A stretch of 64,000 bases of DNA from Planctomycetia bacterium. Its GTDB lineage: Bacteria; Planctomycetota; Phycisphaerae; UBA1845; UTPLA1. How positions within the stretch are numbered: the first letter of the stretch is position 1; the number at the start of each line of letters is the position of its first letter. The position numbers and the translations under genes were made by a program. A model generated the notes under the pieces. It saw only the letters and a list, made by a program, of their open reading frames with translations. It ran no database searches and was not told the DNA's origin. The stretch is from NCBI GenBank assembly GCA_015200345.1, contig CP054187.1, positions 1,162,470 through 1,226,469 on the forward strand, given 5' to 3'. Below, piece after piece: positions 15,332 to 42,318 of this stretch.

Positions 15332-15510
15332 ATGTGCGGGGGAAAAAACTGATGGCTCCACTCACCACTGCCTTTGTACTTGCGTTCCTGAGTGTGGGAT
15401 GTATCCCGGCGGACCAGACATCTAGCACCTCGTCGGGGGACCCGATCTCAACGTTGATCGGGTTTGCGATTGATTTTGGTCGGCAGATTCTTGCCGCGTT
15501 TCTGTTTTGA
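15328..15510 (+). CDS. 60-residue putative lipoprotein
   Basis: The start ATG overlaps the stop of the preceding TolC-like gene (ATGA), indicating translational coupling. The product has a basic N-terminus, a hydrophobic segment and the lipobox FLSVGC, leaving a ~35-residue mature peptide with a second hydrophobic C-terminal stretch (STLIGFAIDFGRQILAAFLF). No family is recognised. Coupling suggests a small partner of the efflux complex. Confidence 0.55.
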   Translation: MNVRGKKLMAPLTTAFVLAFLSVGCIPADQTSSTSSGDPISTLIGFAIDFGRQILAAFLF

Positions 15511-15521
15511 AGGAGTCCTGC

Positions 15522-16757: not shown

Positions 16758-16759
16758 GC

Positions 16760-19858: not shown

Positions 19859-19862
19859 TTAC

Positions 19863-20675
19863 ATGGCCGCAACGAATGGGGTTTTCTTCACGGTCGCGGC
19901 CACGGGCTTCACCGTCGCATTCTTCCACGCGGCCATTCCCACGCATTGGTTGCCGTTTGTGCTCGCATCGCGCGCCCAGCGGTGGAGCCGGGCCAAAACC
20001 TTGGCCATCACGGCAATTGCCGGTGGCGGACACGTGCTGTTCACCACACTGCTAGGCGTCTTCATCGCCTGGCTTGGCATCGCCATCAATGAAAGGATTG
20101 GAGACCTGTTCCCTTGGATCGCGGGCGGCGCGTTGATCGTCTTTGGACTGTACTATGTTTTTGGCCAACTGAGTGGAAAAGGACACGGACATAGCCATGC
20201 ATCTGGCGGACACAGCCATGCCGCCCGCAAGCATTCCCACCATGACCACGGCCATGAGCATAGCGATCATGGTCACGATCATTCTCACCCGCATCCGCAC
20301 GAGCGACCGGATCACGCCCACGACGGTGAGACGACCGTCGCAGATGAAATGAAAGACTTTCGCGCCCTGGAGCAACCAAAGCCCACCTCCGATTGGGTCG
20401 CAATCGGCAGCCTGTTCGCCTTGTTGACCTTCTCCCCTTGTGAAGGGTTTTTGCCAGTTTATCTCTCCGGCATCCGCTACGGATGGATGGGCTTCGCACT
20501 CCTCAGCGCCATCCTTGCAGGAGCAACGCTTTCGGGAATGGTGATCTTTACTTGGTTGACGCTCATCGGGCTGGAGAAGCTCAAGCTCCAACTCCTGGAA
20601 AAGTACGAGAGCGGAATCTTAGGCGGCGCGCTGTGCCTGCTGGGGGTTCTTGTCATTTTGTTCGAGCACCAATGA
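19863..20675 (+). CDS. NicO/RcnA-like divalent-metal transporter with His-rich loop
   Basis: About 270 residues with six predicted membrane helices in two groups of three, split by a cytoplasmic or periplasmic loop extremely rich in His (HGHSHASGGHSHAARKHSHH and more). Helix 1 has FFHAAIPTHWLPFV and helix 4 has LLTFSPCEGFLPVYLSG, which resemble the NicO/RcnA and related exporter fold. It probably exports or distributes Ni, Co or Zn. I start at ATG 19863, 4 bp after the CzcA stop; an in-frame TTG inside czcA at 19830 is the alternative. It overlaps the next gene by ATGA. Confidence 0.65.
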   Translation: MAATNGVFFTVAATGFTVAFFHAAIPTHWLPFVLASRAQRWSRAKTLAITAIAGGGHVLFTTLLGVFIAWLGIAINERIGDLFPWIAGGALIVFGLYYVFGQLSGKGHGHSHASGGHSHAARKHSHHDHGHEHSDHGHDHSHPHPHERPDHAHDGETTVADEMKDFRALEQPKPTSDWVAIGSLFALLTFSPCEGFLPVYLSGIRYGWMGFALLSAILAGATLSGMVIFTWLTLIGLEKLKLQLLEKYESGILGGALCLLGVLVILFEHQ

Positions 20676-22867: not shown

Positions 22868-23058
22868 GCTGGGTACGAACAGTCAATGAAAAGGATGCGA
22901 ACGGCGTGCTGGCCACGATCTATGAGGAGTGCCGTGCAAAGTTCGGCGCTGTAATCAATCTGGTGAGAATTCAGGGGCTACGACCGGAGACGATGGCGAT
23001 TGGACGCCAGTTTTATCGTCACTTGATGGACGCCCCCGGCGGCCTCTCGAAGCTTCAG
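22864..23058 (+). pseudogene. AhpD-like (carboxymuconolactone decarboxylase family) gene, 5' part, cut by IS21
   Basis: The first 65 codons of a peroxidase-related AhpD-like protein, starting ATGA-overlapped with the ATPase gene. Sequence such as FGAVINLVRIQGLRPETMAIGRQFYRHLM fits the helical N-terminal part of that family. The gene stops at the IS21 left end at 23059; its last six bases CTTCAG are one copy of a target-site duplication. The second half lies on the opposite strand at 39272-39664. Joining the two halves without the IS and one duplication copy is perfectly in frame (LSKLQ-RVLIATVVSKVNGC). Confidence 0.85.
23053..23058 (+). repeat. IS21 target-site duplication, copy in AhpD-like 5' half
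   Basis: CTTCAG abuts the left IS21 end here. The same six bases, in gene orientation, abut the other IS21 copy at 39665-39670. This pairing marks the two outer flanks of one original insertion. Confidence 0.75.
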
Positions 23059-23145
23059 TGTCATCTATCACTTGAAAACCGGCCACGGGTTATCGAATCA
23101 AAACCGGCCAGTGGTTGCTGATATACCTCACTTCAGGGGCTTTGA

Positions 23146-23991
23146 TCAAGCCGTGTTATTTTCTTCATCCTTCTTTTTCGAACGGTTCAGGCTCCGTCCT
23201 CGGTCGCCTTCACTGTCGGCGCCGTCCTTCGGGGCGGGCTCGCCATCGGCCTTTTCATCCTTCACGGCCCGGTCTTTGAGGCGGTAACTGCGGCCGGTGA
23301 TGGTGATGATCTCGGCGTGGTGCAGGAAGCGGTCGAGGATGGCGGTAGCAGAGGGAACATCCCCGATCAGCTTACCCCAATCCTCCAGCGGCCGGTTGGA
23401 TGTCATGATGGTGGAGTGGTTTTCGTATCGGCGCATGATGATCTCGAACAGATATTCCCCGCTTCGCTTGGGGAGTTGCTTCATGCCCATGTCGTCGACG
23501 ATGAGCAGGTCCGGTTTCAAGTATTTCGCCAGGGTCTTGTCCTCGGCGGCGAAGGCCTCGTCGTGGAGGAAGTCACGGACCACGTCGAAGATGGAGTGGT
23601 ACAGGACGTAGAAGCCGGCCTTGATGGCCTGATAGCCGATGGCCTGCACCAGATGACTTTTTCCCGTACCCGGCGGACCGAGGATGAGGACGTCCTTGGC
23701 CTCGCGGATGAACTTGCACGCGGCCAGGTCGAAGATCTGCTTCTTCCTAATGGCGGGATTGAATTGCCAATCAAAGTCTTCCAGGGTCTTGGGCTCGCGG
23801 AAGGCGGCGGCCTTGGTGCGGCGCTTGATGAGGCGATCCTGTCGGACAGCCAGTTCATCCTGAAGGACCAGTTCGAGGAATTCGGCGTGAGACAGGTGGT
23901 TCGCCATCGCTTCTTGGAGGCGGACGTCCAGGGAGGGCGTCAAGCCCGAGAGGCGTAACTTCTTCAATGCGGTTTGCAACGCTTCATTCAT
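23146..23991 (-). CDS. istB: IS21 transposition helper ATPase IstB
   Basis: A 281-residue DnaC/AAA+-like ATPase that assists the IstA transposase. Walker A GPPGTGKS and Walker B LLIVDDMG are visible, with the C-terminal ITGRSYRLKDR segment of the family. ATG 23991 has AAGGAA upstream. The frame is intact here, unlike the second copy. The C-terminus is rich in charged residues (DGADSEGDRGR, KKKDEEN). Confidence 0.92.
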   Translation of the reverse strand: MNEALQTALKKLRLSGLTPSLDVRLQEAMANHLSHAEFLELVLQDELAVRQDRLIKRRTKAAAFREPKTLEDFDWQFNPAIRKKQIFDLAACKFIREAKDVLILGPPGTGKSHLVQAIGYQAIKAGFYVLYHSIFDVVRDFLHDEAFAAEDKTLAKYLKPDLLIVDDMGMKQLPKRSGEYLFEIIMRRYENHSTIMTSNRPLEDWGKLIGDVPSATAILDRFLHHAEIITITGRSYRLKDRAVKDEKADGEPAPKDGADSEGDRGRSLNRSKKKDEENNTA

Positions 23992-25590
23992 GGGCAAAGT
24001 TCCTTGATCAGAGGTTGATGTTGAAGACAGGCGTGCACGATCCGGCCGTATTCGCTGATGCTGCGGATGATCGGGTGACGGTCGATGAACTCGAATTGTT
24101 CCTGCTTGGGCGCCGCGCGCTTAATCAACTCGCGCAGGGCTCGCAGGCGATAGGCCCCGTGAGTCTGGGCGATCTCACAAGCTTGTTCGATGGCGTCGTA
24201 GGAATGTCGGTTGGCCAGGGCCGTGACGCCGACCAGGACGCGTATACCCTGGATGCCGCGCTCGGCCAGCATGGATTCGGCCCACCGCGCTGCATGCGGG
24301 CCGATGCGTCCAATCTTTTTCAGGAGCCACTCCGCGCCGCGTTCTACTCCGGCGATCTTCTCGGTGACGATGTGCTTGGACTGCGTACTGAACCGGCCCG
24401 CTTCATGCCGGGCATGAATGGCGATCTGCTGGAGTCGGTCATTGAAGATACGGACCACCCGGCCATCCCAACGCGCCCAGACCGTGCGGCTGACGTACTC
24501 CGGCGGCGCCGAGTAGTAGGCCTTGTCGACTTCGACATGGCCGTCGCGGTGAACTTGGGCGCTGGGCCTCATGGAAGAAGGGGAATCTCTCAACAGGCAA
24601 TGGCAACAGCGCCGATCGTTCGACTTCTTCGAAGAGCCTGCCCACCTGCTTCTTCGTCGTGCCGTGGATGCGGGTGTCGGCGACGCCGGCCTCCCACTCC
24701 AACAGGTATTCGTTCTGTTCCTCGGAGGCTGGTGAAGGTGCGCCCTTTGAGGCCGTTGTCCTTCACATAGCCGATTCCCCGCTCGGTCTTGCCCTTGTGC
24801 CGCGGGGTGTAGGGGCTTGGTGGGCAGGATCACCGAGCCGTAGTGCCGGCAGAAGGCCTCGATCTTGGGGTTGATCTCCGGTCGAACCAGTCGGTTGGTT
24901 TACGGCGGCCTTCAAGTTGTCGATGACCAACGTCTTGGGCGCGCGCCGAAGTGATGAAAGGCGTTCTCGATGCAGCGGATGAACTCTTCGGTGGTCTGTC
25001 GATAGACGACCTCGCTGTAGGCCTTTCGGGAGTGGCTCAGCAGGACGCGGAGGACATGGGTCTTGCGACGCCGTGTCTTGCCATTCGGCTGACTCAGATC
25101 GACCGGCACGATCACCGCGCCGGTGCCGAAGTCGATCTGGGCCTCGGCGCCCGGCTCGCACTCCATCCGCCGGAACGGCAACGGCCGCGCTGTCCGCAGG
25201 CGACGCACAAACCGCTGAACCGACTGGTAGCTCTCGGCGAAGCCATGATCAGTTCGAAGGTCCTGCCAGATCCGCTGCGCCGTCAGGCCCCGCTTCAGGG
25301 CCTCCATGATCGCGGCGCGATAGGGTCACAATGACTGCGGCGTCCCCGCCGACCCGGCAATCGAAATGGCCGGTTTTGCCGGATCACACCCGGGGATCGA
25401 AATCAGGGAATCCGCCGCGCCCTCCGGCGGCGCCGGTCCCGATGCCGGCCCGCCCCCGCGCCAGGCCCACATACCGGGCGACGGTCTCGCGGTGGACACC
25501 CATCTCCCGGGCGATCCGCCGATACGACCAGCCGTGCTCGGCCAGCCTGATGATTGCGTGCTGTTCGGCCATCTTGAGTTGGTTCGCCAT
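23988..25590 (-). pseudogene. istA: IS21 transposase istA, multiply frameshifted
   Basis: Pieces of the DDE transposase are readable in different frames: the HTH start MANQLKMAEQHAIIRLAEHG, the core with IDFGTG and VIDNLKAA, and the C-terminus ending in KELCP. Comparison with copy 2 shows several 1-3 bp indels (for example near 24731, 24816, 24945 and 25120). The N-terminal HTH region and the C-terminus are each in frame. The indels may be decay or consensus errors in a repeat. Confidence 0.85.
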
Positions 25591-25706
25591 CAATGCTCTC
25601 CTGCAGCCAGACCCCGGCTGGGAGAACTTCAAGACGAACCGACAACTCCTCAAAGTGGCCGGTTTTCAAGTGATAATCACTGGACGGTTTTGACTGATAG
25701 CTGACA

Positions 25707-26688: not shown

Positions 26689-29600
26689 TCAGGCCGCGAT
26701 CGGCCACTCCGCGTACAACGCCTCCGCCTGTGCCATCAGCACGGGCATCAGCCGATCAAAGTCTTCAGCCTTCACGCCCTGTTTCGTCAGAACACGCCGC
26801 ACCGCCGCTCTCACTGCGGCCTTCACGTCCTCCCGATGCGGCTCGGTCCAATCCACCTTCAGGTTTCGCTTGATGCTCTGCACAACGTCGTGGATCAGGC
26901 CCTTCAGGAAGTCCACGCCGTAGACGTTCTCGTAGTTGATGGCGACCGCGTCATAGAAGGCAAGCTCATCCTCCGCCAAGCCCAACTGCCCGGCCCGCTG
27001 ATCCGAGGCCTCCATGTCCTTCTTGATCTCGATCATGGCGCGGATGACCGCCGCCGCGTCGATGAGCCGGTTGTGGTACTTCTGGAGCGTCGCTTCGAGT
27101 AGTTCACGGAACGTCTTCGCCTTGGCCAAGTTCTTCTTGGCCCGCATGTGGATCTCGTCAGCGAGCAGTTTTTCGAGCAACTTGAGCCGAAGATCCGGCA
27201 GCGGCCGGTCCTTAAACGTCTGAAGGAAGTTGTCGTCGAGGATCGAGATGTCGGCCCGCGTGATCCCCGCGGCCTTAAAGATGTCAACCACGTCCTCGCT
27301 CTCGACGGTGTCATCCACCAGGTCCCGCACCGCCTTCTCGATGTCTCTGGTAGGGCCACGCCCGCGGATCGTCTTGAGGAGTTGCTTGCGCACCCGCTGA
27401 TAGAAGATAACCTCGTCGGCACTGGCGCGGCAGTCATCCAGGTGTTTAACGAGCAGGAATGCGCTCGTCAGCCTCAGCTCGGCGTCCAAGAAGTGGTCCC
27501 GCAGGTCATCGTCGCTGGTCAGATGCCCGTAGACCGCCGCGTAGCGGTCCTCTAGCGCGATCGGCGAGAGCCGCCGCCAGTCGCCGTAGTTCACGCCTTC
27601 GGGGAGGAAAGACCGCACCTCGGCCAGCGACGCCACGAACAGCGGCCGGGCGTCTTCATCCAGCCCGCCTGCGGGCTTCCCGTGATCTTCTCCACCCGCT
27701 GAGTACTTCGCGGTCGCCGCCCGCAACTCATCGCCGATGCCGATGTAGTCCACGATCAGCCCGTGCGGCTTGTCGCTGAACACGCGGTTCACACGCGAAA
27801 TCGCCTGAATCATCGTGTGCCCCTTCATGGGCTTGTCCACGTACAGCGTGTGCAGGCATGGGATATCCGTGCCCGTCAACCACATATCGCAGACGATCAC
27901 CATTGACAGCGGATCGTCCGCGTCGATCATCCGCTTCTTGATTGCTTCGCGCTGCTGTTTGGTCGTCAGGTGCCCGGCCTTGCTCCACGCCTCCGGGTCC
28001 TTGCCCAGGTCGCCGGTCATCACGACCTTGATCTCGGGGCACCCCGGCAGCGCCTTGAGCGCATCGTACAGCCGCACGCAGTTCTCGCGGGTCATGCAGA
28101 CGACCATCGCCTTGCCCTTGAGCGTGGCCGTCCGGTCCTTGAAGTGTGCGAGCAAATCCGCCGCGAGTTGGTCGATGCGGTCCTTTGCGCCCGCCGCCTT
28201 GGCCAGCGCGGCCCATTGGCCCTTCTTTCTCTCCAACTCGTCAATCGCCCCCCCCTCCGCATCTTCGACAATCTCCGCCAGTGCCCCATCCACATCCGTC
28301 TTGTTCAAATGAAGCTTGATCTGCCGTGGCTCGTAGAAGATCGGCACCGTCGCCTTGTCATCCTGGCTCTGGCGGATGTCGTAGACGTGGACCAGGTCAC
28401 CGAAGACCTCAACGGTGTCGGCCCCGCTGAAGGAGACAGGCGTGCCGGTGAACCCCAGCCGCCGCGCATTGGGCAGCGCCGCCCCGAGCCAGCGTGCAAA
28501 GCCCTTGGTGAACCCGTACTGGCTCCGGTGCGCCTCATCGGCGATCACGATCACGTTGTCTCGCGTCGAGAGCACCGGATGCTCGGCCTCGCCCTCACGC
28601 AGCGCGAACTTCTCGATGGTGGTGAAGATCACCTCGCCGCCCTGTGTCTGGAGCAGCCCGCGAAGATCTTCGACGCTCTTGGCGTGCTTGACGTCGCCCA
28701 CCAGCGAGCGGGCCGAAACGAACTGGTCGTGCAGTTGCTGGTCCAGGTCCGTCCGATCGACCTGAATCACGAAGGTCGGGTTGTTCAGCACGGCCTCCCG
28801 CCGCAGCATCCCCACCAGGAAGCACATCGACAGCGACTTCCCCGAGCCGGTGGTGTGCCAGATGACGCCCAGCCGCTTGTCCGCGCTGCCCGCCGCGACC
28901 GACTCCAGGATCTTCCTCGCCCCGATCCGCACCGCGAAGAACTGGTGATACTTGCCGCCCTTCTTGATGATCTTGCCCCCGGCGGCTCCAACAGTTTCGA
29001 AGACGATGAAGTCGCGGATGTACGCCAAGAGCCGGTCCTTGGGCAGCAGCCCCTCGACCAGCGTCTTCATGCTCCCGGTGGTGCCGCGCTCGACGCTTGT
29101 GCCATCAATGCTCTTCCACGGCGCGTACCACTCTTCGCTGGCGGTCCACATCCCGTGCAGCGTGGTCACGCCGTCAGAGGCGATGCACAGCGCGTTGTGG
29201 TCAAAGAGTTGCGGGATCTCGTGGCGGTAGTGTCCGATCTGGTTAATCGCGTCCGCCACCGTGGGCTGGTCGTCGTACGGGTTCTTGAGCTCGAACAGGA
29301 CCAGCGGCAGCCCGTTCACGTACACGATGACATCGGGCCGACGATCGTTCCCACTTGGCCCGTGGACGGGCAACTGGTTCACGACCAGGAACTCGTTGTT
29401 CTCCGGTGTCTCCCAGTCCACCGCGTAGACGTGCGCGATGCGTTTACCCGCGGGCTTCCCGTCTGCCGCCGGTTCTTCGACGGCAATCTCCACGCCACCG
29501 CGCAGCATGGCGTGCAGCGCGGCGTTGCGGCGGAGTGTGTCCACACCCTCGGGCCGGGCGAACTTGGCGATGGCCAACTCGATGGCCGCCTCCGGCAGCC

Positions 29601-29793
29601 CATCGGGGCGGGTGATTGTCCGCCCGTACCGTCGCGTCAGGAACGCGCGCAGATGGTCCTTGAGCACCACCTCGGCCTCATCGCCCCCGCGTGCAGCGAG
29701 CAGTTCGGAGCCGTGCACATGGACATAGCCCAGGGCCTTGAGCCGCTCGATGGTGGTGTACTCGAACTCGGATTCGGAGCCGTGCCAGCCCAT
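26689..29793 (-). CDS. hsdR: type I restriction enzyme, HsdR (R) subunit
   Basis: A 1034-residue restriction and translocase subunit. The N-terminal nuclease domain carries RPDVIVYVNGLPLVLFELK, the D..ELK core of the PD-(D/E)xK fold. It is followed by two helicase domains with Walker A TTGSGKS (~314-320, Lys319) and DEAH (~419-422), plus helicase motif VI ISRVNR. The C-terminal helical region likely binds the methylase. Length and order are standard. The gene starts 3 bp after hsdS and is co-directional with hsdM. It appears intact. Confidence 0.94.
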   Translation of the reverse strand: MGWHGSESEFEYTTIERLKALGYVHVHGSELLAARGGDEAEVVLKDHLRAFLTRRYGRTITRPDGLPEAAIELAIAKFARPEGVDTLRRNAALHAMLRGGVEIAVEEPAADGKPAGKRIAHVYAVDWETPENNEFLVVNQLPVHGPSGNDRRPDVIVYVNGLPLVLFELKNPYDDQPTVADAINQIGHYRHEIPQLFDHNALCIASDGVTTLHGMWTASEEWYAPWKSIDGTSVERGTTGSMKTLVEGLLPKDRLLAYIRDFIVFETVGAAGGKIIKKGGKYHQFFAVRIGARKILESVAAGSADKRLGVIWHTTGSGKSLSMCFLVGMLRREAVLNNPTFVIQVDRTDLDQQLHDQFVSARSLVGDVKHAKSVEDLRGLLQTQGGEVIFTTIEKFALREGEAEHPVLSTRDNVIVIADEAHRSQYGFTKGFARWLGAALPNARRLGFTGTPVSFSGADTVEVFGDLVHVYDIRQSQDDKATVPIFYEPRQIKLHLNKTDVDGALAEIVEDAEGGAIDELERKKGQWAALAKAAGAKDRIDQLAADLLAHFKDRTATLKGKAMVVCMTRENCVRLYDALKALPGCPEIKVVMTGDLGKDPEAWSKAGHLTTKQQREAIKKRMIDADDPLSMVIVCDMWLTGTDIPCLHTLYVDKPMKGHTMIQAISRVNRVFSDKPHGLIVDYIGIGDELRAATAKYSAGGEDHGKPAGGLDEDARPLFVASLAEVRSFLPEGVNYGDWRRLSPIALEDRYAAVYGHLTSDDDLRDHFLDAELRLTSAFLLVKHLDDCRASADEVIFYQRVRKQLLKTIRGRGPTRDIEKAVRDLVDDTVESEDVVDIFKAAGITRADISILDDNFLQTFKDRPLPDLRLKLLEKLLADEIHMRAKKNLAKAKTFRELLEATLQKYHNRLIDAAAVIRAMIEIKKDMEASDQRAGQLGLAEDELAFYDAVAINYENVYGVDFLKGLIHDVVQSIKRNLKVDWTEPHREDVKAAVRAAVRRVLTKQGVKAEDFDRLMPVLMAQAEALYAEWPIAA

Positions 29794-29796
29794 GCG

Positions 29797-31278
29797 TCAC
29801 GCCCTTCCTTTCACGGTGCCCGCGACCTTCCCGCTGCGCGGCGAACCGTTCCCACCCGCGCGGGGCGGCGGACTGGTGGTTTGGAGCGCATCATCCACGG
29901 CCCGCTCGGCCTCACGCAAACGAATCTCGCCCGAGAGCAGTTGCGGCAGGAGCGCATCGCGCAGCGCGGCGAGCGCGCGTGACTCGTGCGCCTGGATGCG
30001 CAGCATGTCAGCCACCTGCCGCATCCACACCGAGTAAGAAGCCGCGACCGGCTCCGGCGGGATCACGATCTGATAGCGGGCCATGTCGCCCCAACTCGTC
30101 CGGGGCATCCGCGTGCCACCCGATGCGCCGTCCACGTAGTCGATGAACTCATCGGAGGAGAGGTGGCCGAGCAGCACGCCGAACCAGCATTCCTTCTTCG
30201 GAGCCGCGACGATCACGTCCGTCGAGCACACGCCGTCGATCAGGGCCACGCCGACCTTGTGGAAGTACGGACGCAACTTGCCGAAGAGGATTTCACCGCG
30301 CGCGAAGCGGGACTTGCCGCTCGACACGTCCGCCGCCGTTCCCCAATCGTCCAGCGCGATGCTCCGGCGGGGCATGTGTTCCAGCCCGACGTAGGGCGTG
30401 GTCGCGGCCACCTCGGAAGGCAACACGCCGCGGCGCGGGTTGGTACCGATCTCGCCCACCGTCCCCACCCTCCACCCCTCCGGGATCGGGCCGAGGGGGG
30501 AATCGGTGAGGCGGGTGGGCCAGAGGGCGGGGTGATGGGGGAGGCCGCCGGCGTGGGGCGTCCCGGCGCCCGGCGTGCCCGCCGCCCCGCCCTTGAGGCC
30601 CCGCCCGCCCGCGCCGCCCGCCCGCCGCAGGACCGGGTCAAAGTCGATGAACCACGACCGGAAGACCCCGCGCGCCAACTCCTCCAGCGTCCGGTTCATC
30701 CGCCGATTCAACTCGATCTTGTCATCCAGCCCCCCCAGCACCCGCGCGATGGCGCGTTGCTCGGGGAGAGGGGGAAGGGTGATCCACATGCGCCGTTGAT
30801 CGGTCAGACTGACGTAGTCCGCCATGTCGGTCTGGCCCTTGACCGAATCGGCTTGCTCCCAGAACTCCGAGCCGTGCATCCAGTAAAGCAGGAAGCGAGA
30901 GTCGATGACGTTCGGGTCGAGCGAACGCCAATAGCAGAGTTGGGGCGCGAACACAAATCGGGGTGTTTCGGGCAGCACATAGGCGAATCTGCCGACCGTG
31001 CCTTTCGACGTAAACACCACGTCACCGGGGCGGCTGATCTTGTCTCCAACCTTGTGCAAGTCGGCCTCGGGGAAACGGTCGGCGTCGTTGAACAGGAAAC
31101 CGCCGTCAATGTTTCCGGCTCTTGCGAACGGGATGCCGTGCGACGCCAACTCGGCGTTCTTTGCGCGGTATCCGTCGCCGACCGCGAGAACGCCCGCGTC
31201 GATCAACTGCTGAATCCGGAAGGTCCCGACAAAGGCTTCGCCCGTTGATGCCTTTCCGTTGTTCGTTCGCTCACCCAC
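29797..31278 (-). CDS. hsdS: type I restriction enzyme, HsdS specificity subunit
   Basis: A 493-residue specificity subunit with two target-recognition domains, each followed by a conserved helical spacer (LPPLPEQRAIARVLGGLDDKIELNR in the middle, IPPEPVAASY... at the C-terminus). I start at GTG 31278, which has GGAGGTG at ideal spacing; the longer frame runs into repeats. Between FRSWFIDFDPV and LGPIPEGW lies a Gly/Ala/Pro-rich linker (~30 residues) of high GC. The N-terminal recognition domain begins with FRIQQLID. The gene is separated from hsdM by 1.36 kb of repeats, which is unusual. Confidence 0.9.
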   Translation of the reverse strand: MGERTNNGKASTGEAFVGTFRIQQLIDAGVLAVGDGYRAKNAELASHGIPFARAGNIDGGFLFNDADRFPEADLHKVGDKISRPGDVVFTSKGTVGRFAYVLPETPRFVFAPQLCYWRSLDPNVIDSRFLLYWMHGSEFWEQADSVKGQTDMADYVSLTDQRRMWITLPPLPEQRAIARVLGGLDDKIELNRRMNRTLEELARGVFRSWFIDFDPVLRRAGGAGGRGLKGGAAGTPGAGTPHAGGLPHHPALWPTRLTDSPLGPIPEGWRVGTVGEIGTNPRRGVLPSEVAATTPYVGLEHMPRRSIALDDWGTAADVSSGKSRFARGEILFGKLRPYFHKVGVALIDGVCSTDVIVAAPKKECWFGVLLGHLSSDEFIDYVDGASGGTRMPRTSWGDMARYQIVIPPEPVAASYSVWMRQVADMLRIQAHESRALAALRDALLPQLLSGEIRLREAERAVDDALQTTSPPPRAGGNGSPRSGKVAGTVKGRA

Positions 31279-31435
31279 GCCGCACCTCCGATCCGCAGGT
31301 GCGCTGATGCCCGAGGGGCGTGTGTGGGGGCCGCCCCGCCGGCACCTCCCCGGCTCGGAATAGAACATCACCCGCGCGGGCGCGAGCGCCGATCGCGCGG
31401 GCCGCAGCAAACACCCGCCGCGCGTCTCCGCGCCT

Positions 31436-32070
31436 CTCGACCCCGGAGGGGTCAAGGGCTGTCGCCACGGGTGGAGCGACGGTGCTTTGACCGTCGCGCA
31501 ACCCGTGGAGAGCGTCGTGCGTGGGGCCGCCCCGGCAGGGGCGGAGGAATCGTCCGTTCACAGGATCGCGCCCCTCCCGCGCGGGCGAACATCCCTCTGC
31601 CCCTCCGGGGCAGAACCCATCCGCGCGCGTCCCGTCCACGGGTTCCGCATCGCTGCGCGATGCTCCACCCGTGGCTACACCCCATCGTCCCTCCGGGACG
31701 AAGACCGCGCGGGCGGTTCCGTCGTCTTCGACCCCGGAGGGGTCAGGGCTGTCGCCACGGGTGGAGCGACGGTGCTTTGACCGTCGCGCAACCCGTGGAG
31801 AGCGTCGTGTGTGCGGGGGCCGCCCCGGCAGGGGCGGAGGAATCGTCCGTTCACGGGATCGCGCCCCTCCCGCGCGGGCGAACATCCCTCTGCCCCTCCG
31901 GGGCAGGAGATATCTCCGCGCGTCCCGTCCACGGGTTCCGCATCGCTGCGCGATGCTCCACCCGTGGCTACATCCCGTCGTCCCTCCGGGACGAAGACCG
32001 CGCGGGCGATGCTCCACCCGTGGCGTGGGGGGGCACCCCGTCGTCCCTCCGGGACGAAGACCGCGCGGGC
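31436..32070. repeat. 290-bp tandem repeat made of short perfect hairpins
   Basis: Two nearly identical units (anchors GTCGCCACGGGTGGAGCGAC at 31461 and 31751, period 290) and a third partial unit ending near 32070. Each unit strings together perfect or near-perfect hairpins: GACCCC-GGA-GGGGTC, GACGGT-GCTTTG-ACCGTC, CCGCCCC-GGCA-GGGGCGG, CTGCCCC-TCC-GGGGCAG, GCATCGC-TGC-GCGATGC and TCGTCCC-TCC-GGGACGA. It resembles a complex REP-like array. Confidence 0.8.
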
Positions 32071-32211
32071 CAGTGCGCAAAGCCCGTGCTCCCGTGGGCC
32101 GTCCAATCCCCTCCGGGGACCGTCCAATCCCTTCCCGCGCGCCGCCCCGGGCCTCCGTGCGCCGTGCATTCCCTCCCGGCGTGCCGCCGTGGGGGGGCGG
32201 CGCGCCGCGCC

Positions 32212-32462
32212 GGGACCGTCCGGCTCACTCGGACGACCGTCCGACTCACCCGGACGACGCGACAGGCGGCCCGGACGACCCGCCAACTCACCCGGCGGCC
32301 CCGCCGGATGGCCCGGACGACCCGCCGACTCATCCGTCAGCCCCGCCAGCCCGCCCGGACGACGCGACAACTGACTCGGACGACGCGACAACTGACCCGG
32401 CGGACGCGACAACTCGTCCGTCGCGTCCGCCGACTGCCTTGTCGCGTGGCGGGGATGACCCC
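32212..32462. repeat. 21-bp minisatellite, about 12 degenerate units
   Basis: Units follow the pattern GGACGACGCGACAACTCACC plus C with variation, for example GGACGACCCGCCAACTCACC and GGACGACGCGACAACTGACT. The 21-bp period keeps all frames open and would encode a 7-residue repeat if translated. No start signal supports translation. Confidence 0.75.
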
Positions 32463-32642
32463 CACGAGGCAGAACCTGCGCGGCGGGGGCCAGTGGCGGG
32501 TATCCGGAGATACCGGAGAACTGCCGGGAGGCCGGCGCGAACCATCCGGTGTTTCCGGAGAGTTCGATTCCGACCCGCGCGAACTGTTCGGAGTTTCCGA
32601 AGCGTTGCTCGCCAGCCCAACTTGTAAGTATTCCTTTCACGT

Positions 32643-34346
32643 TCATTTGGCCGTGGCCCCCATAGCCGCCGCCACCTCGGCCAGGCTCGCCCGGATCTGC
32701 TTCTCCAGCGCGGCCGACTGCTTGAACTGCTCATCCAGCGTCGCCGCCAGGTGCGGAAAGCGGTCCTCGAACGGCTCATCCGGATCATCGCTCTCGGCCG
32801 CGCCGACGTAGCGCCCCGGCGTCAGCGCGTAGTTGTGCTCGCGGATTTCCTCCAGCGTCGCGGCCTTGCAGAAGCCCGCAACCTCCGCGGGCGTGCCCTT
32901 CCGCTTGAACTCGCGGTAGACGGATGCGATCTTCTCGACCTCCTCCGCCGACAGTTGCTTCTGCTTGCGCGAGCCGGGGATGAGCGTGCCGAGTTTGCGG
33001 CCGTCGATGAAGAGGACTTCGTTGGTGCGGGCGCGGAAGCCAAGGCCCCCGCCCCGGTTCTTGGACAGGAACCAGAGGCAGCACGGGATCTGCGTGTTGG
33101 CGAAGAGTTGGCCTGTGAGCTGCACGATGCAGTCCACGTAGCCGTGCTCGACGAGGGCCTTGCGGACTTCGAGGCGCGCGGTCTCGCTGTTGGAGAGTTC
33201 GCCCGTGGCCATCACGAATCCGGCGGTGCCGCCGGCGTGCTTCTTTCCATCAGGGTCGCGGAGGTGATGCAGGAAGTGCATCATCCACATGGTGTTGGCG
33301 TTGCGCGGCGAGAGAGGCATGGGCTGGCCCGCCCCTTGGGCGCTGGGGGGGTGGCCGTTCGCGCCGGCACGCTTGGCGAAGTCCAGCCGTGGGTCCTTGC
33401 TCGTGATGCGGTGAGCGCCCCAGCCATCCTCGCCCTTCGCGCCGTCGTTGAAGGGGGGATTGGCGATGACGTAGTCGGCCTTCGTATCGGCGTGCAGATC
33501 GTTGAAGTACGAACTGCCGAGTTGGATGTTGCCGTCGATGCCGTGGATGAAGAGGTTCATCCGGCACAGCCGGTACGTGAAGTCCTTGCTTTCCTGGCCG
33601 ATGAACGACAGGCGGCCCGAGTGCTTCGTGAACACGTCCGACTGCACGAACATGCCGCCCGCGCCGCAGCAGGGGTCGTACACGACGCCGTCGGTCGGCT
33701 CGAGCATGGCGACGAGCGTGCGGACAATCGAGACGGGCGTGAAGTACTCGCCGCCGCGCTTGCCCTCGCTGTTGGCGAACTCGCCGATGAAGTACTCGTA
33801 GACGCGGCCGACCAGGTCTTCGCCGCCGTGGTCCTGCTTGAAGATGTCCTTCGAAAACAGGTTGATCAGGCCGGTGACACCCTCGCGGTCGAGGTTCGAG
33901 CCGGCGTAGATGCGGGGTAGCAGGCCGCGGAGTTTGTCGGGGTAGGTCTTCTCCAGAAGTTCGAGGGCGTCGTCGAGGATGCTCTTGATTGTGTCCGCCT
34001 GGGCGTGCTGGAGGATGTAAGACCAGCGGGATTTTTCGGGGACGATAAAAGCACCCGCGGCGCGATACTCGTCCGCGTCGGCCAGAATGCGGGCGCGGGC
34101 CTTCGCGTCCTTGGTGAAGTAATCGCTCTTCGGGTCCGCGAGCAATCCCTCGAGTTCCTCGCGGCGGCGCTCATAGCGCAGCGAGAGGAACCGGAGAAAG
34201 ATGATGGGCAAGACGTACCGCTTATAGTCGGCGGGCTCGATCGAGCCGCGCAGGTTGACGGCGGCCTGCCACAGTTCCTTCATGAGCTGTGCCGTCCCGT
34301 TCTGCGGGGCTTCGTCCTTCGGCTTCTTCGCGGTCCGCTTGGCCAT
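32643..34346 (-). CDS. hsdM: type I restriction-modification DNA methyltransferase, HsdM
   Basis: A 567-residue N6-adenine methylase. The N-terminal helical domain (LWQAAVNLRGSIEPADYKRYVLPIIFLRFLSLRYERR) contacts HsdS. The SAM motif VYDPCCGAGGMFVQ and the catalytic NPPF at residues 296-299 (VIANPPFND) are present. The C-terminal region continues through FIDGRKLG to the end. The start ATG 34346 lies just below a 23-bp near-perfect palindrome. The first residues are Lys-rich. Confidence 0.95.
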   Translation of the reverse strand: MAKRTAKKPKDEAPQNGTAQLMKELWQAAVNLRGSIEPADYKRYVLPIIFLRFLSLRYERRREELEGLLADPKSDYFTKDAKARARILADADEYRAAGAFIVPEKSRWSYILQHAQADTIKSILDDALELLEKTYPDKLRGLLPRIYAGSNLDREGVTGLINLFSKDIFKQDHGGEDLVGRVYEYFIGEFANSEGKRGGEYFTPVSIVRTLVAMLEPTDGVVYDPCCGAGGMFVQSDVFTKHSGRLSFIGQESKDFTYRLCRMNLFIHGIDGNIQLGSSYFNDLHADTKADYVIANPPFNDGAKGEDGWGAHRITSKDPRLDFAKRAGANGHPPSAQGAGQPMPLSPRNANTMWMMHFLHHLRDPDGKKHAGGTAGFVMATGELSNSETARLEVRKALVEHGYVDCIVQLTGQLFANTQIPCCLWFLSKNRGGGLGFRARTNEVLFIDGRKLGTLIPGSRKQKQLSAEEVEKIASVYREFKRKGTPAEVAGFCKAATLEEIREHNYALTPGRYVGAAESDDPDEPFEDRFPHLAATLDEQFKQSAALEKQIRASLAEVAAAMGATAK

Positions 34347-34356
34347 TGTGTACTCC

Positions 34357-34379
34357 GTCCATGTTCAGTGAACGTGGAC
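34357..34379. promoter_or_regulatory. 23-bp near-perfect palindrome upstream of hsdM, candidate operator
   Basis: GTCCATGTTCA-G-TGAACGTGGAC: 11-bp arms with one mismatch around a single central base, ending 11 bp before the hsdM start. This is the expected place for a repressor or control-protein site. The XRE protein at the end of the operon is a candidate binder by inference only. Confidence 0.55.
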
Positions 34380-34455
34380 AGAGTATCATAACCGGCGGGT
34401 CAATGCCAGCGGATCAGGGTCGATCCGACAGCCCGCGTCGGTCTGGCGTAGACGC

Positions 34456-34623
34456 CATGTCGAAGTTGGGGGGGCCAAGGGATTCAAGATCGGTCGGGAC
34501 AACGAGACGGGCCGCCTGAAGTCTGTCGAACAGGCCAAGGCCAACCCCCGAGGGTCGTCAGTCGAGGTCATGCCCAAGAAGGGGAACGGCGACACGGGTC
34601 GCTACGACAACAAGAAGAAGTAG
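34456..34623 (+). pseudogene. fragment of a small conserved Lys-rich protein
   Basis: An open frame without a clear start codon reads FKIGRDNETGRLKSVEQAKA, then PRGSSVEVMPKK and a Lys-rich end DNKKK. The GRDxxTGRxxxVxxA pattern resembles a family of small uncharacterised bacterial proteins. It lies divergent from hsdM and just before the recombinase cassette. It may be a truncated remnant or a gene with an unusual start. Confidence 0.35.
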
Positions 34624-34626
34624 TTG

Positions 34627-35022
34627 TCAGCGGCGCGGCAGCGATCCCCATCGCCGCCGTTGCTCCATCCAGTCCATCACGCAGGCCACGTCGCGCAGCA
34701 TGTGCTCGTGGATGGGATCGCGCCCACTCATCACCAGCGGCAGGAACAGAATCTCCTCCTGAATGTCCGGCGCGAGGTGGCAGAGATTCATCAACTGCGT
34801 GATCCGCGGCTGGGTGACGTGCGTCAGGCGGGCGATCTCGGAGATGTTGGCGACCTTCCCGGCGCGGATCATCTCGTCGAAGTGGATCGCCAGCGCCATC
34901 AGGCGCGAGATACGCGGCACGCGGCCGGGGTCCACGGCTACTCGCGCGGCGGGCTTCGTGTCAATCGTCTTGCGCCCGTGGGCGGCGCGGTTGAAGAAGA
35001 CCTTCGTCTTGACGGTGATCAT
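34627..35022 (-). CDS. ParB/KorB-like HTH protein of a recombinase cassette
   Basis: A 131-residue protein with a central helix-turn-helix (VANISEIARLTHVTQPRITQLMNL) and a DIQEEILFLP segment. The start ATG overlaps the stop of the serine recombinase gene (ATGA), so the two are translationally coupled. Similar small HTH proteins follow this type of recombinase in other genomes. A role as recombination directionality or DNA-binding partner is inference. Confidence 0.75.
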   Translation of the reverse strand: MITVKTKVFFNRAAHGRKTIDTKPAARVAVDPGRVPRISRLMALAIHFDEMIRAGKVANISEIARLTHVTQPRITQLMNLCHLAPDIQEEILFLPLVMSGRDPIHEHMLRDVACVMDWMEQRRRWGSLPRR

Positions 35023-36608
35023 GCCTGGGCCTCCGGTCCTTCTGCTGCCCCGCCCGCCAGCGCCTTCACGCCCGACGGGTAGAACGACACCTCGATGCTG
35101 CTGTCGAGGGCGTCGAAGACGACCTTGTTGATCAGCAACTGGAGCATCCTGACCTGCTCTCGGGGCGCGAGCGCGGTCCAGACGTTGTCGAAGTCGGCAA
35201 ACGCCGCGTGGAGGTCTTCGGCTGAGAGCACTTCCGCTCGGTGGCGTTCTACGGCGGCCCCAATCTCGCTGGCCCGCCGCTCCGCCTCGCGGATCTGGTC
35301 GTTGAGGTCGGTGATGCGGCCCGCGGACGCGGAGGACGCTGGCTCGGTGGTTGCCAGGTGGCGGATCTCGGCGTGATTGCGCCCCAGACCACGGTTGACG
35401 ATGCGCAGCTCGGCGTCCAACTGCTCGATGGCCGCGTCTGCTTGAGCCCGCGATGCCGAGAGCGTCTCCTCCAGAACGCTCTGGTCCTGGCCGACGCACC
35501 GGATCTGTTCGACGACCGCCTTCTCGATCTCAAGGGCGGGCAGCGAACCACTCTGGCAACGAGCGCGGCCCTTCTTGATGGCGTTGCAGCAGACGTAGTA
35601 CCGATACGCCTTGTTCCCACGCCGGGTAAAGGTGTGGACCATCGCGCTGCCGCACCCCTTGCAGTACAGCAGTTTGCGCAGCAGCGCCCCGAACTGGTTT
35701 CTCAGTTCGTTGCCGCGGGTCCGTGAGTTCTTCTGCATCAGCACGTGCGCACGCCGGAACGTCTCCTCCTCAACTATGGCCTCGTGCTGCCCCTGGTACG
35801 TCTCGCCCTTGTGGACCACCTTGCCCATGTAGATCGGATTCGTCAGCGTGCAGTACACCGAGTGCCGGTCCCATTCCACGCCGCCACGAATCACCCCAGC
35901 CTTCGTTCGCCACGATTTGGTCTTCCAGCCGCGTTTGCAGAGATCTTCACCGACCGACAGCAACGACCCGAGTTCAAGGTACCGCTCAAAGATGTGGCGA
36001 ACCCGCGACGCCTCAGCCGGGTTGACGACGAGGCGTGGGCTTCCGTTCGAGCGGTCGACGTCGTACCCGAACGGCGGCGGACCGCCGCCCCATTTGCCCC
36101 GCTTCTTCGCCGCCGCGATCTTGTCCCGGATGCGCTCGCCGATGATCTCACGCTCGAACTGGGCGAACGACAGGAGGATGTTGAGCGTGAGCCGGCCCAT
36201 CGAGTGGGTCGTGTTGAAGTGCTGGGTAACCGAGACGAACGAAACCTTGTGGCGATCAAAGACCTCCATGAGGCGCGCGAAGTCCATCAGCGACCGGGAC
36301 AGACGGTCCACCTTGTAGACCACCACGCAGTCGATCTTGCCCGCCTCGATGTCGGCCATCAGGCTCTTGAGGCCGGGCCGATCGACGTTACCGCCGGAGA
36401 ATCCGCCGTCGTCGTATCGATCGGGAAGCGCCGACCATCCCTCGTTCCGCTGGCTGGCGATGTACGCCTCCGCCGCCTCACGCTGGGCGTCGAGGGAGTT
36501 GAACTCCTGCTTGAGCCCCTCCTCGCTCGACTTTCGGGTGTAGATCGCGCAGCGACATTGCGGAGGCGGAGTGGCGGCGTGCTTTCCGTTCTGGGTGCCT
36601 CTGCTCAT
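35019..36608 (-). CDS. large serine recombinase
   Basis: A 529-residue site-specific recombinase. The N-terminal resolvase domain has the catalytic serine (Ser27 in IYTRKSSEEG), YDDGGFSGGNVDRPGL and VYKVDRLSRSLMDF. The recombinase domain follows, with PPPFGYDVD and ITNPIYMGKVVHKG-type sequence (LTNPIYMGKV). A zinc ribbon (CKGCGSAM...YYVCCNAI...C) and a coiled-coil precede the C-terminus. It is coupled to DUF2924 upstream and the HTH gene downstream. It appears intact and could mobilise the island. Confidence 0.93.
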   Translation of the reverse strand: MSRGTQNGKHAATPPPQCRCAIYTRKSSEEGLKQEFNSLDAQREAAEAYIASQRNEGWSALPDRYDDGGFSGGNVDRPGLKSLMADIEAGKIDCVVVYKVDRLSRSLMDFARLMEVFDRHKVSFVSVTQHFNTTHSMGRLTLNILLSFAQFEREIIGERIRDKIAAAKKRGKWGGGPPPFGYDVDRSNGSPRLVVNPAEASRVRHIFERYLELGSLLSVGEDLCKRGWKTKSWRTKAGVIRGGVEWDRHSVYCTLTNPIYMGKVVHKGETYQGQHEAIVEEETFRRAHVLMQKNSRTRGNELRNQFGALLRKLLYCKGCGSAMVHTFTRRGNKAYRYYVCCNAIKKGRARCQSGSLPALEIEKAVVEQIRCVGQDQSVLEETLSASRAQADAAIEQLDAELRIVNRGLGRNHAEIRHLATTEPASSASAGRITDLNDQIREAERRASEIGAAVERHRAEVLSAEDLHAAFADFDNVWTALAPREQVRMLQLLINKVVFDALDSSIEVSFYPSGVKALAGGAAEGPEAQA

Positions 36609-37093
36609 CGACGGCCCTCCAGGTTGAAGAACCGGAATCCGTTGATGTGCGATCCGGTGACCGCTTTGGCGATCGCCGACAGGGAGCGGTAGAGCTCACC
36701 CTCGAACTCGAACCCGTCCGTCAGCACCACGACCCGCACCGTCCGGCCCCGGTAGTCCCGGACGATCGCCGTTCCCGCGGGTGGTAGCCGTGGGTCCGCC
36801 GTGGCGGCGAGGGCGACCTTCTTGGCGTCCTTGGGGGCCTCCCCGAGCGTGGCCCACTTGGGTGGCGTACGCCGCACGTCGGTCGGGTTGGCGAGTTGGG
36901 CCGCTCGGACACGGGCTCGTTCGGACAAGCCACCTTCGGCGTTGGCCTGGATGCGCCACGCGATGCGGCGGACGAGGTAGATGCGATGGCGGCTCTGAAT
37001 CCGCTCGCCGAAGAGCTCGGCGTAGCGATCGTGCAGTTCGCCGATCGTCATCTTTTCCAGCGCCGCGAGGTCCTTCGAAACGGTGGTCGTCAT
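36605..37093 (-). CDS. DUF2924 family protein
   Basis: A 162-residue protein matching the DUF2924 pattern: LAALEKMTIGELHDRYAELFGE near the start, RIQSRHRIYLVRRIAWRIQ, then TAIVRDYRGRTVRVVVLTDG and LYRSLSAIAKAVTGSHINGF at the C-terminus, where the last segment resembles a small DNA-binding fold. It overlaps the recombinase start by ATGA and is usually encoded with it. I start at ATG 37093 (MTTTVSK). Confidence 0.88.
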   Translation of the reverse strand: MTTTVSKDLAALEKMTIGELHDRYAELFGERIQSRHRIYLVRRIAWRIQANAEGGLSERARVRAAQLANPTDVRRTPPKWATLGEAPKDAKKVALAATADPRLPPAGTAIVRDYRGRTVRVVVLTDGFEFEGELYRSLSAIAKAVTGSHINGFRFFNLEGRR

Positions 37094-37119
37094 GGGCAAG
37101 TCTCCAGATGCCCGCACCG

Positions 37120-38460: not shown

Positions 38461-38596
38461 GCCGCCCCCCTGATCCATCCATCGGTCCGCCTAGTTGCTC
38501 AATGCCTTGCGCGAATCTGATGCAGACCGGGCATCATTTCGAGTTAACCGCGATACCCTTTGGGATACGCCTCGGCCTGAGCACTTCGAGCGCGGT

Positions 38597-39178
38597 CTAG
38601 CGCTGCTGGGCTTCTTTAAGGGTTGGGCAATCCAACGCAGCGCGCATCGCGTCGGTCACGCCCGGCCGATCGATTGGAACCAGATGCATCATCTCGCCGT
38701 TAGCGGATTGGAACTGTGTTCCGAATCGCTGATATCGCCCAAGGTCCATCATCAGGCGATCGTAGCTGGCCGCCGCGAGCCACCTTGCTTCCCGGTTGCC
38801 TAACACTGCTGCAATGATAGCAAGCTCGTGAGCGAGTTGGATTCCTTCGACGTCATCGGCGTGCTGAAACACCAGCGCCGCATGGTAATAATCCGCACCT
38901 GTGCGTACTGCGCCCTCATCCAGCAGTTTACGCACACTCACCCGACGTTGTACGTCGCGCTGGTACATGGTGACCCCGTCGGTCGGGTTTCCCGTTCGAT
39001 CGGCCTGGTCCTGCTCGTATAGCATCAAGAGATCGGCTGAATCGGGTGATGCCGGGGAGGAGGTTTCGACTTGCGTTTGCTCGGCTTCGCGCGAGGCCGG
39101 AGTGTTCCGAGCGACGCCAACGCAACCGACCACTTGGATGTAAAGCAGCAACGCAATGGCGAAGAATGCTGTTCGCAT
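38597..39178 (-). CDS. putative lipoprotein resembling DUF6624 proteins
   Basis: A 193-residue protein. Residues 1-19 form a signal with a lipobox-like end (VVGC). The mature part contains LYEQDQADR, RRVSVRKLLDEGAVRTGADYY, HAALVFQHADDVEGIQLAHE, and a C-terminal pattern MMHLVPIDRPGVTDAMRAAL. This order resembles DUF6624 domain proteins of unknown function. In the pre-inversion arrangement it would directly follow the AhpD-like gene on the same strand, 93 bp after its stop. Confidence 0.65.
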   Translation of the reverse strand: MRTAFFAIALLLYIQVVGCVGVARNTPASREAEQTQVETSSPASPDSADLLMLYEQDQADRTGNPTDGVTMYQRDVQRRVSVRKLLDEGAVRTGADYYHAALVFQHADDVEGIQLAHELAIIAAVLGNREARWLAAASYDRLMMDLGRYQRFGTQFQSANGEMMHLVPIDRPGVTDAMRAALDCPTLKEAQQR

Positions 39179-39271
39179 GTGGTTTCTCCGTGGGCGGAAA
39201 AAAGTAGAAGCGTTAGCCGTTCAAAACCTCTTCGAAGCTCTGTTCTACAGGGCCAAGCGGGCTGAAGAGTG

Positions 39272-39664
39272 TTAGCGCTCGCTGGCGCTTTCCCGTCGCG
39301 TTCCGGCCTTTGGGAGAAAGCGCATCCCGGGATCCGGCTCGGCGCCAAGACCATCCAGTACACGATTGATGTAGTTGAAATAGGAAGCCATCTGAACGAT
39401 GTCGACCACATCTTCATCCCGGAATCCAACACGGAGCAACGCTTCAATATCATCTGAACACATGTCGTTGGGCGTCTTCGTCAGCTTCACGGCGTAATCA
39501 AGCATTGCACGCGTCGCGGGGGCGAGTTTCGCCTGGCGATAATCCTCTTGAATCGTGCTCACCACTTTGCCATCTTGGACCTCGGCACGGAGGTCCGCCT
39601 CGTGGCTCTCCATTCAGTACAAGCAGCCATTCACCTTCGATACAACAGTGGCGATCAGAACTCG
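39272..39664 (-). pseudogene. AhpD-like gene, 3' part with in-frame TGA (probable selenocysteine)
   Basis: Reading from the IS21 end, the sequence encodes RVLIATVVSKVNGCLY, then an in-frame TGA at 39616-39614, then MESHEADLRAEV and 110 further residues typical of peroxidase-related AhpD-like proteins (AMLDYAVKLTKTP, DIVQMASYFNYINRV). The AhpD catalytic motif is CxxCxxxH; here it is CLY-TGA-MES-H, so TGA replaces exactly the second redox cysteine. This strongly suggests selenocysteine (Sec82 of the joined 195-residue protein, with Cys79). The 5' half is at 22864-23058. A shorter frame starting at ATG 39613 would lack the active site. Confidence 0.8.
39577..39596 (-). promoter_or_regulatory. 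candidate bacterial SECIS hairpin
   Basis: On the - strand GGACCTC-CGTGCC-GAGGTCC forms a perfect 7-bp stem with a 6-nt loop whose second base is G. The stem begins 17 nt after the TGA and the loop 24 nt after it. Both fit the published bacterial SECIS geometry (loop 16-37 nt after UGA, a G among the first two loop bases). Confidence 0.6.
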
Positions 39665-39670
39665 CTGAAG
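39665..39670 (-). repeat. IS21 target-site duplication, copy in AhpD-like 3' half
   Basis: CTGAAG on the + strand (CTTCAG in gene orientation) abuts the IS21 istA end at 39671 and matches 23053-23058. Confidence 0.75.
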
Positions 39671-39786
39671 TGTCAGCTATCAGTCAAAACCGTCCAGTGA
39701 TTATCACTTGAAAACCGGCCACTTTGAGGAGTTGTCGGTTCGTCTTGAAGTTCTCCCAGCCAGGGTCTGGCTGCAGGAGAGCATTG

Positions 39787-41253
39787 ATGGCGAACCAACT
39801 CAAGATGGCCGAACAGCACGCAATCATCAGGCTGGCCGAGCACGGCTGGTCGTATCGGCGGATCGCCCGGGAGATGGGTGTCCACCGCGAGACCGTCGCC
39901 CGGTATGTGGGCCTGGCGCGGGGCGGGCCGGCATCGGGACCGGCGCCGCCGGAGGGCGCGGCGGATTCCCTGATTTCGATCCCCGGGTGTGATCCGGCAA
40001 AACCGGCCATTTCGATTGCCGGGTCGGCGGGGCGCCGCAGTCATTGTGACCCCTATCGCGCCGCGATCATGGAGGCCCTGAAGCGGGGCCTGACGGCGCA
40101 GCGGATCTGGCAGGACCTTCGAACTGATCATGGCTTCGCCGAGAGCTACCAGTCGGTTCAGCGGTTTGTGCGTCGCCTGCGGACAGCGCGGCCGTTGCCG
40201 TTCCGGCGGATGGAGTGCGAGCCGGGCGCCGAGGCCCAGATCGACTTCGGCACCGGCGCGCCGGTGATCGTGCCGGTCGATCTGAGTCAGCCGAATGGCA
40301 AGACACGGCGTCGCAAGACCCATGTCCTCCGCGTCCTGCTGAGCCACTCCCGAAAGGCCTACAGCGAGGTCGTCTATCGACAGACCACCGAAGAGTTCAT
40401 CCGCTGCATCGAGAACGCCTTTCATCACTTCGGCGGCGCGCCCAAGACGTTGGTCATCGACAACTTGAAGGCCGCCGTAAACCAAGCCGACTGGTTCGAC
40501 CCGGAGATCAACCCCAAGATCGAGGCCTTCTGCCGGCACTACGGCTCGGTGATCCTGCCCACCAAGCCCTACACCCCGCGGCACAAGGGCAAGACCGAGC
40601 GGGGAATCGGCTATGTGAAGGACAACGGCCTCAAAGGGCGCACCTTCACCAGCCTCCAGGAACAGAACGAATACCTGTTGGAGTGGGAGGCCGGCGTCGC
40701 CGACACCCGCATCCACGGCACGACGAAGAAGCAGGTGGGCAGGCTCTTCGAAGAAGTCGAACGATCGGCGCTGTTGCCATTGCCTGTTGAGAGATTCCCC
40801 TTCTTCCATGAGGCCCAGCGCCAAGTTCACCGCGACGGCCATGTCGAAGTCGACAAGGCCTACTACTCGGCGCCGCCGGAGTACGTCGGCCGCACGGTCT
40901 GGGCGCGTTGGGATGGCCGGGTGGTCCGTATCTTCAATGACCGACTCCAGCAGATCGCCATTCATGCCCGGCATGAAGCGGGCCGGTTCAGTACGCAGTC
41001 CAAGCACATCGTCACCGAGAAGATCGCCGGAGTAGAACGCGGCGCGGAGTGGCTCCTGAAAAAGATTGGACGCATCGGCCCGCATGCAGCGCGGTGGGCC
41101 GAATCCATGCTGGCCGAGCGCGGCATCCAGGGTATACGCGTCCTGGTCGGCGTCACGGCCCTGGCCAACCGACATTCCTACGACGCCATCGAACAAGCTT
41201 GTGAGATCGCCCAGACTCACGGGGCCTATCGCCCGCGGTTTCGCGCGAGTTGA
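39787..41253 (+). CDS. istA: IS21 transposase IstA, C-terminus shortened by frameshift
   Basis: A DDE transposase of ~488 residues. The N-terminal HTH (IIRLAEHGWSYRRIAREMGVHR) and the catalytic rve core (AQIDFGTG, VIDNLKAAV, KTERGIGYVKDN) are intact. Compared with copy 1, one base is missing near 41235, so the frame ends at 41253 and the last ~50 residues (KRAAPKQEQFEFIDRH region) are out of frame. ATG 39787 is the likely start. Confidence 0.85.
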   Translation: MANQLKMAEQHAIIRLAEHGWSYRRIAREMGVHRETVARYVGLARGGPASGPAPPEGAADSLISIPGCDPAKPAISIAGSAGRRSHCDPYRAAIMEALKRGLTAQRIWQDLRTDHGFAESYQSVQRFVRRLRTARPLPFRRMECEPGAEAQIDFGTGAPVIVPVDLSQPNGKTRRRKTHVLRVLLSHSRKAYSEVVYRQTTEEFIRCIENAFHHFGGAPKTLVIDNLKAAVNQADWFDPEINPKIEAFCRHYGSVILPTKPYTPRHKGKTERGIGYVKDNGLKGRTFTSLQEQNEYLLEWEAGVADTRIHGTTKKQVGRLFEEVERSALLPLPVERFPFFHEAQRQVHRDGHVEVDKAYYSAPPEYVGRTVWARWDGRVVRIFNDRLQQIAIHARHEAGRFSTQSKHIVTEKIAGVERGAEWLLKKIGRIGPHAARWAESMLAERGIQGIRVLVGVTALANRHSYDAIEQACEIAQTHGAYRPRFRAS

Positions 41254-41383
41254 TTAAGCGCGCGCGCCCTGGCAGGAACAATTCGAGTTCATCGACCGTC
41301 ACCCGATCATCCGCAGCATCAGCGAATACGGCCGGATCGCACGCCTGTCTTCAACATCAACCTCTGATCAAGGAACTTTGCCC

Positions 41384-42228
41384 ATGAATGAAGCGTTGCA
41401 AACCGCATTGAAGAAGTTACGCCTCTCGGGCTTGACGCCCTCCCTGGACGTCCGCCTCCAAGAAGCGATGGCGAACCACCTGTCTCACGCCGAATTCCTC
41501 GAACTGGTCCTTCAGGATGAACTGGCTGTCCGACAGGATCGCCTCATCAAGCGCCGCACCAAGGCCGCCGCCTTCCGCGAGCCCAAGACCCTGGAAGACT
41601 TTGATTGGCAATTCAATCCCGCCATTAGGAAGAAGCAGATCTTCGACCTGGCCGCGTGCAAGTTCATCCGCGAGGCCAAGGACGTCCTCATCCTCGGTCC
41701 GCCGGGTACGGGAAAAAGTCATCTGGTGCAGGCCATCGGCTATCAGGCCATCAAGGCCGGCTTCTACGTCCTGTACCACTCCATCTTCGACGTGGTCCGT
41801 GACTTCCTCCACGACGAGGCCTTCGCCGCCGAGGACAAGACCGGCGAAATACTTGAAACCGGACCTGCTCATCGTCGACGACATGGGCATGAAGCAACTC
41901 CCCAAGCGAAGCGGGGAATATCTGTTCGAGATCATCATGCGCCGATACGAAAACCACTCCACCATCATGACATCCAACCGGCCGCTGGAGGATTGGGGTA
42001 AGCTGATCGGGGATGTTCCCTCTGCTACCGCCATCCTCGACCGCTTCCCTGCACCACGCCGAGATCATCACCATCACCGGCCGCAGTTACCGCCTCAAAG
42101 ACCGGGCCGTGAAGGATGAAAAGGCCGATGGCGAGCCCGCCCCGAAGGACGGCGCCGACAGTGAAGGCGACCGAGGACGGAGCCTGAACCGTTCGAAAAA
42201 GAAGGATGAAGAAAATAACACGGCTTGA
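41384..42228 (+). pseudogene. istB: IS21 helper istB with two frameshifts
   Basis: Same gene as the intact copy at 23146-23991. A 2-bp deletion near 41844 (GACCGGCG against GACCCTGGCG) shifts the frame after FAAEDKT, and one extra C near 42049 shifts it again. Walker A is still readable. The changes may be decay or consensus error. Confidence 0.85.
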
Positions 42229-42318
42229 TCAAAGCCCCTGAAGTGAGGTATATCAGCAACCACTGGCCGGTTTTGATTCGATAACCCGTGGCCGGTTTTC
42301 AAGTGATAGATGACAGCG

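Follow-up and report, generated by a model that had tools for sequence, protein, structure and literature searches.

The 64,000-nucleotide stretch of DNA analysed here (the window) carries the two separated halves of a gene that almost certainly belongs to a known selenoprotein type, the TIGR01926 proteins with a CxxU motif, in which an in-frame TGA is read as selenocysteine (Sec), and that has been broken by the insertion of an IS21-type element together with a probable inversion. The family has been known since 2005, and the window gene is a broken further member of it. Being split by the element and by a probable inversion, the locus in the window cannot make the AhpD-like selenoenzyme. Plain reading of the raw sequence recovers a selenoprotein even if it is split and inverted; annotation would miss such genes.

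The split gene and its uninterrupted counterpart

The 5′ part of the gene (codons 1–65) is located at 22864–23058 on the forward strand, and the 3′ part (codons 66–195 and the TAA stop) at 39272–39664 on the reverse strand, inverted and 16.6 kb away. Joining 22864–23058 (+) to 39664–39272 (−) gave a 195-codon frame with a single internal TGA at codon 82 (39614–39616, reverse strand), surrounded by C-L-Y-TGA-M-E-S-H. The recomputed join was identical to the one proposed in an earlier reading made from the letters of the window (the sequence-only reading), as was the start of the gene, where the ATG at 22864 overlaps the stop of the upstream metal ATPase (20672–22867) as ATGA.

That reading had attributed the split to an IS21 insertion and had suggested looking for a relative without the element. 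Such a relative was found in Planctomycetota NC_groundwater_1803 (G008), where contig C60 (L056) holds the same gene whole and uninterrupted, which represents an independent empty site. Window positions 19861–23058 (86% identical) and 38592–39670 (86%) align to adjoining stretches of this contig, and the two aligned stretches overlap by exactly six bases, CTTCAG (L056 7279–7284). The same hexamer flanks the element in the window at the 5′ half (23053–23058, forward strand) and at the 3′ half (39665–39670, reverse strand). Because the halves meet in G008 at the 6-bp duplicated target, both the join and the insertion are real.

Elements of the IS21 family carry istA (a DDE transposase) and istB (an ATPase) in tandem, have terminal TGT...ACA and produce a short target duplication. 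The two-gene layout, the TGT/ACA ends and the 6-bp duplication were all seen here, which makes the element a candidate member. There are two copies of 2.65 kb, a left copy with istA/istB and several indels (23059–25706, reverse strand) and a right copy in inverted orientation (39671–42315, forward strand), which are 98.9% identical and, fragments aside, are the only two full copies in the 3.88-Mb single-contig genome. Insertion is, however, only one part of the event: as the halves lie far apart in opposite orientation, a probable inversion is to be added to it, and recombination of one IS copy with the other, inverted one accounts best for this arrangement. The element would have entered after codon 65 with its 6-bp target duplication, and a later inversion between it and the second, inverted copy would have moved the 3′ part by 16.6 kb. 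This history of two insertions and one inversion is incomplete, since comparison of the second pair of IS flanks (the reverse complement of 25707 onwards against 42316 onwards) showed no target duplication match; the order of the rearrangements is therefore one that we infer.

The halves could also have been moved apart by the assembler, with the insertion being real and the 14-kb inversion artificial. Near-identical inverted IS copies that differ mainly by indels are compatible with such an error, as is the second flank pair without a matching duplication, but the genome is a single contig, and whichever way the segment is turned, both gene ends adjoin an IS, which leaves the gene disrupted. 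We consider an assembly artefact unlikely, and recombination between the IS copies is retained as the explanation. Between the copies there are 9 substitutions and more than a dozen indels, many of which break istA or istB in one copy only; this looks like assembly or polishing errors within the repeat, or decay, and since most of the differences are indels, some base-level assembly errors are possible. The segment between the copies (26689–37117) encodes a type I restriction-modification system (an hsdR match, an hsdM match and a weak hsdS match), a large serine recombinase and a DUF2924 protein, a content that suggests an integrated element.

Reading of the in-frame TGA

The machinery for selenocysteine insertion, which the sequence-only reading had proposed to seek in the same genome, is present. 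SelA (444 bits), SelB (304 bits) and SelD (374 bits) each exceeded the cut-off of the respective model, selB lies directly upstream of selA, and a tRNA-Sec gene scored 73.7 bits against a gathering threshold of 47. The SelD protein (L012, G000:C1:3620511) is itself a selenoprotein by an in-frame TGA, within NCAG-TGA-AGK.

Homologues were identified in 63 of the 101 relatives searched; a TGA interrupts the majority of the strong matches that span the full length. In 29 extracted full-length relatives and one paralogue from the same genome (L055), the TGA occurs at one place, with a C three residues before it and an H four residues after it, and all of them show CxxUxxxH. A scan of the species collection yielded over 500 relatives, and codons were compared in the best 80, which span Planctomycetota, Acidobacteriota, Chloroflexota, Gemmatimonadota, Armatimonadota and Nitrospirota, among others. 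The aligned codon was TGA in 79 of these 80 loci and TGC in the remaining one; no other sense codon was present at the site among the best 80 of over 500 relatives. Relative to G008, dN/dS was 0.110 before the TGA and 0.107 after it. The stretch 3′ of the TGA was thus coding until recently and neither half is otherwise decayed, which indicates that the IS insertion into the selenoprotein gene is probably young.

These observations bear on two other readings of the TGA. It might be a simple nonsense mutation, acquired by an AhpD gene of the Cys type whose decay had begun before the IS entered, and the window copy is certainly broken by the element, with a paralogue (L054) frameshifted as well. 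Purifying selection of equal strength on both sides of the TGA and the retention of this codon across many phyla speak against such decay; a nonsense mutation is highly improbable and was rejected on the conservation of TGA in intact relatives. Alternatively, a changed genetic code might assign TGA to another amino acid such as Trp or Gly, as an in-frame TGA is read through both in the window gene and in selD. TGA nevertheless ends many homologues as a normal stop, the full Sec machinery is present, and the site alternates with Cys only. An altered code was therefore also rejected, since TGA is conserved at this site and serves as a stop in other places, and can be given scarcely any weight. 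Judged from these comparisons, the TGA at codon 82 is almost certainly a selenocysteine codon, and in the protein from the intact gene Sec would stand at the second of the two redox positions of CxxUxxxH. The assignment to Sec had been the central claim of the sequence-only reading, and it withstood both checks that could have overturned it: the Sec machinery was found, and the 80 homologous loci compared showed only Sec or Cys codons at the site.

RNA-level constraint downstream of the TGA

A bacterial SECIS stem-loop, GGACCTC-CGTGCC-GAGGTCC, was predicted at 39577–39596 on the reverse strand, 17 nt after the TGA, and lends further weight to the Sec assignment. The stretch from 16 to 45 nt past the TGA was folded in 77 distinct genes, giving a mean of −10.5 kcal/mol against −7.0 kcal/mol for synonymous recodings, with the native fold being lower in 70 of the 77. 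One stem pair (23,36) is C-G in 45 genes and T-A in 14, a double-sided change.

Codon choice is also constrained at the positions eight and nine places downstream of the TGA. Leu90 is CTC in 70 of the 77 genes, compared with 31.5% of the Leu codons at other positions of these genes. Arg91 is CGG or CGT in 71 of the 77 (all 71 aligned CGN codons), compared with 39.6% of the other Arg codons, and CGC, which is the most frequent Arg codon at other sites, does not occur at this position. The binomial p-values for the two biases (1e-27 and 3e-22) are overstated, as related genes were treated as independent; given the spread over phyla, a chance origin is unlikely. Such nearly fixed codons are as expected from a predicted bacterial SECIS whose apical loop is under constraint. 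In the intact gene, UGA at codon 82 would be read as Sec through SelB, tRNA-Sec and this hairpin.

Family assignment and proposed activity

Mycobacterial AhpD possesses a CxxCxxxH redox centre, and it is in this centre that the window protein resembles it. The joined protein matched TIGR01926 (peroxidase-related, AhpD/CMD fold) with 158 bits over positions 1–177 of 178, against a cut-off of 81.8, and the Pfam CMD family (PF02627) with 38 bits. It is not AhpD proper, as the score with TIGR00777 was 28.3 bits against a cut-off of 191.95. NF041238, the alkylhydroperoxidase-related (seleno)protein with CFYUT, likewise has CxxU in an AhpD core but represents a different family, its cut-off of 175 lying well above the 51 bits scored here. 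Solved homologues of the TIGR01926 type include PDB 6k40, 3c1l, 2pfx, 2oyo and 2prr (E down to 1e-43), which presumably have Cys where the window protein has Sec. The AhpD-like, peroxidase-related assignment made from the sequence alone is thus borne out. The C79-x-x-U82-x-x-x-H86 centre might give the enzyme the activity of a small thiol/selenol peroxidase or of a disulfide reductase; the selenolate would take the place of the second, reactive Cys in AhpD.

An AhpD-like CxxU selenoprotein was described from the Sargasso Sea in 2005 with 27 sequences (Zhang 2005; PMC1088965), was found again in an ocean survey in 2008 (PMC2398784) and is listed with TIGR01926 and CxxU in a 2026 review (PMC13188914). 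The window gene shares with this protein the TIGR01926 match, the CxxU motif with Sec at the second redox position and the predicted SECIS directly downstream, in a genome with Sec machinery. It differs in that the window copy is split by an IS and that its nearest relatives lie inside heavy-metal efflux clusters. Carriage by viruses or plasmids was rejected: the viral_contigs search returned a single weak partial match (27%), and all plasmid matches were below 60% identity, those listed being at 34% and annotated as a peroxidase-related enzyme.

Association with heavy-metal efflux clusters

The genes upstream of the 5′ part, all on the forward strand, encode an outer-membrane efflux protein (13757–15331), a CusB-type membrane-fusion protein (15507–16757), a CusA/CzcA-family heavy-metal RND transporter (TIGR00914; 16760–19858), a 281-residue His-rich membrane protein without a family match (19830–20675) and, directly upstream, a heavy-metal P-type ATPase (TIGR01525; cadmium/zinc type TIGR01512; 20672–22867). 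The metal cluster of G008 has the same gene order, with the selenoprotein gene after the P-type ATPase; the gene that follows the intact copy there corresponds to a 193-residue protein at 38597–39178 (reverse strand) in the window. In G009 (L057 6692–11559), the selenoprotein gene is located between CusB and CusA of a heavy-metal efflux operon, and in G047 an ATPase lies ∼2.5 kb from it. The copies from G008, G009 and the window group together in a clade with support of 96/97.

A link between the selenoprotein and metal resistance had been drawn from the gene order of the window. It holds for the window copy and its nearest relatives and does not extend to the family: neighbours are diverse in the remaining loci, and metal-type neighbours occur in few of the best 80 of over 500, so the link is confined to the subclade and a family-wide association was rejected. 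Within the subclade, the argument is one of guilt by association. It is possible, and we propose it tentatively, that these copies have come to function within heavy-metal efflux clusters, perhaps by removing peroxides or reducing metal-oxidised thiols under metal stress; loss of the gene to an IS would in that case mark relaxed metal selection. The placement of a subclade inside metal-efflux clusters is a modestly new point, from which a link of selenium to metal stress can be tested. CusB and CusA (15507–19858 against L056 10592–15044) are 50% and 44% identical to those of G008, compared with 86–88% for the genes on both sides, a difference that suggests the pump was replaced as a cassette.

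Paralogues in the same genome

Two further copies were identified in the genome. The paralogue in L054 (3086–3636, reverse strand; G000:C1:3015073-3015635) is 62% identical, groups with other relatives and retains the TGA, with a frameshift near codon 140 that reflects either decay of the gene or an indel introduced in the assembly. The more distant paralogue in L055 (∼310086–310682) has CHYU in an open frame and may partly compensate for the broken window copy. Just past the stop of this paralogue lies a 49-bp remnant (G000:C1:309978-310026; L055 2979–3028) of the same end of the IS; of the three AhpD-like selenoprotein copies in the genome, two have been touched by this element.
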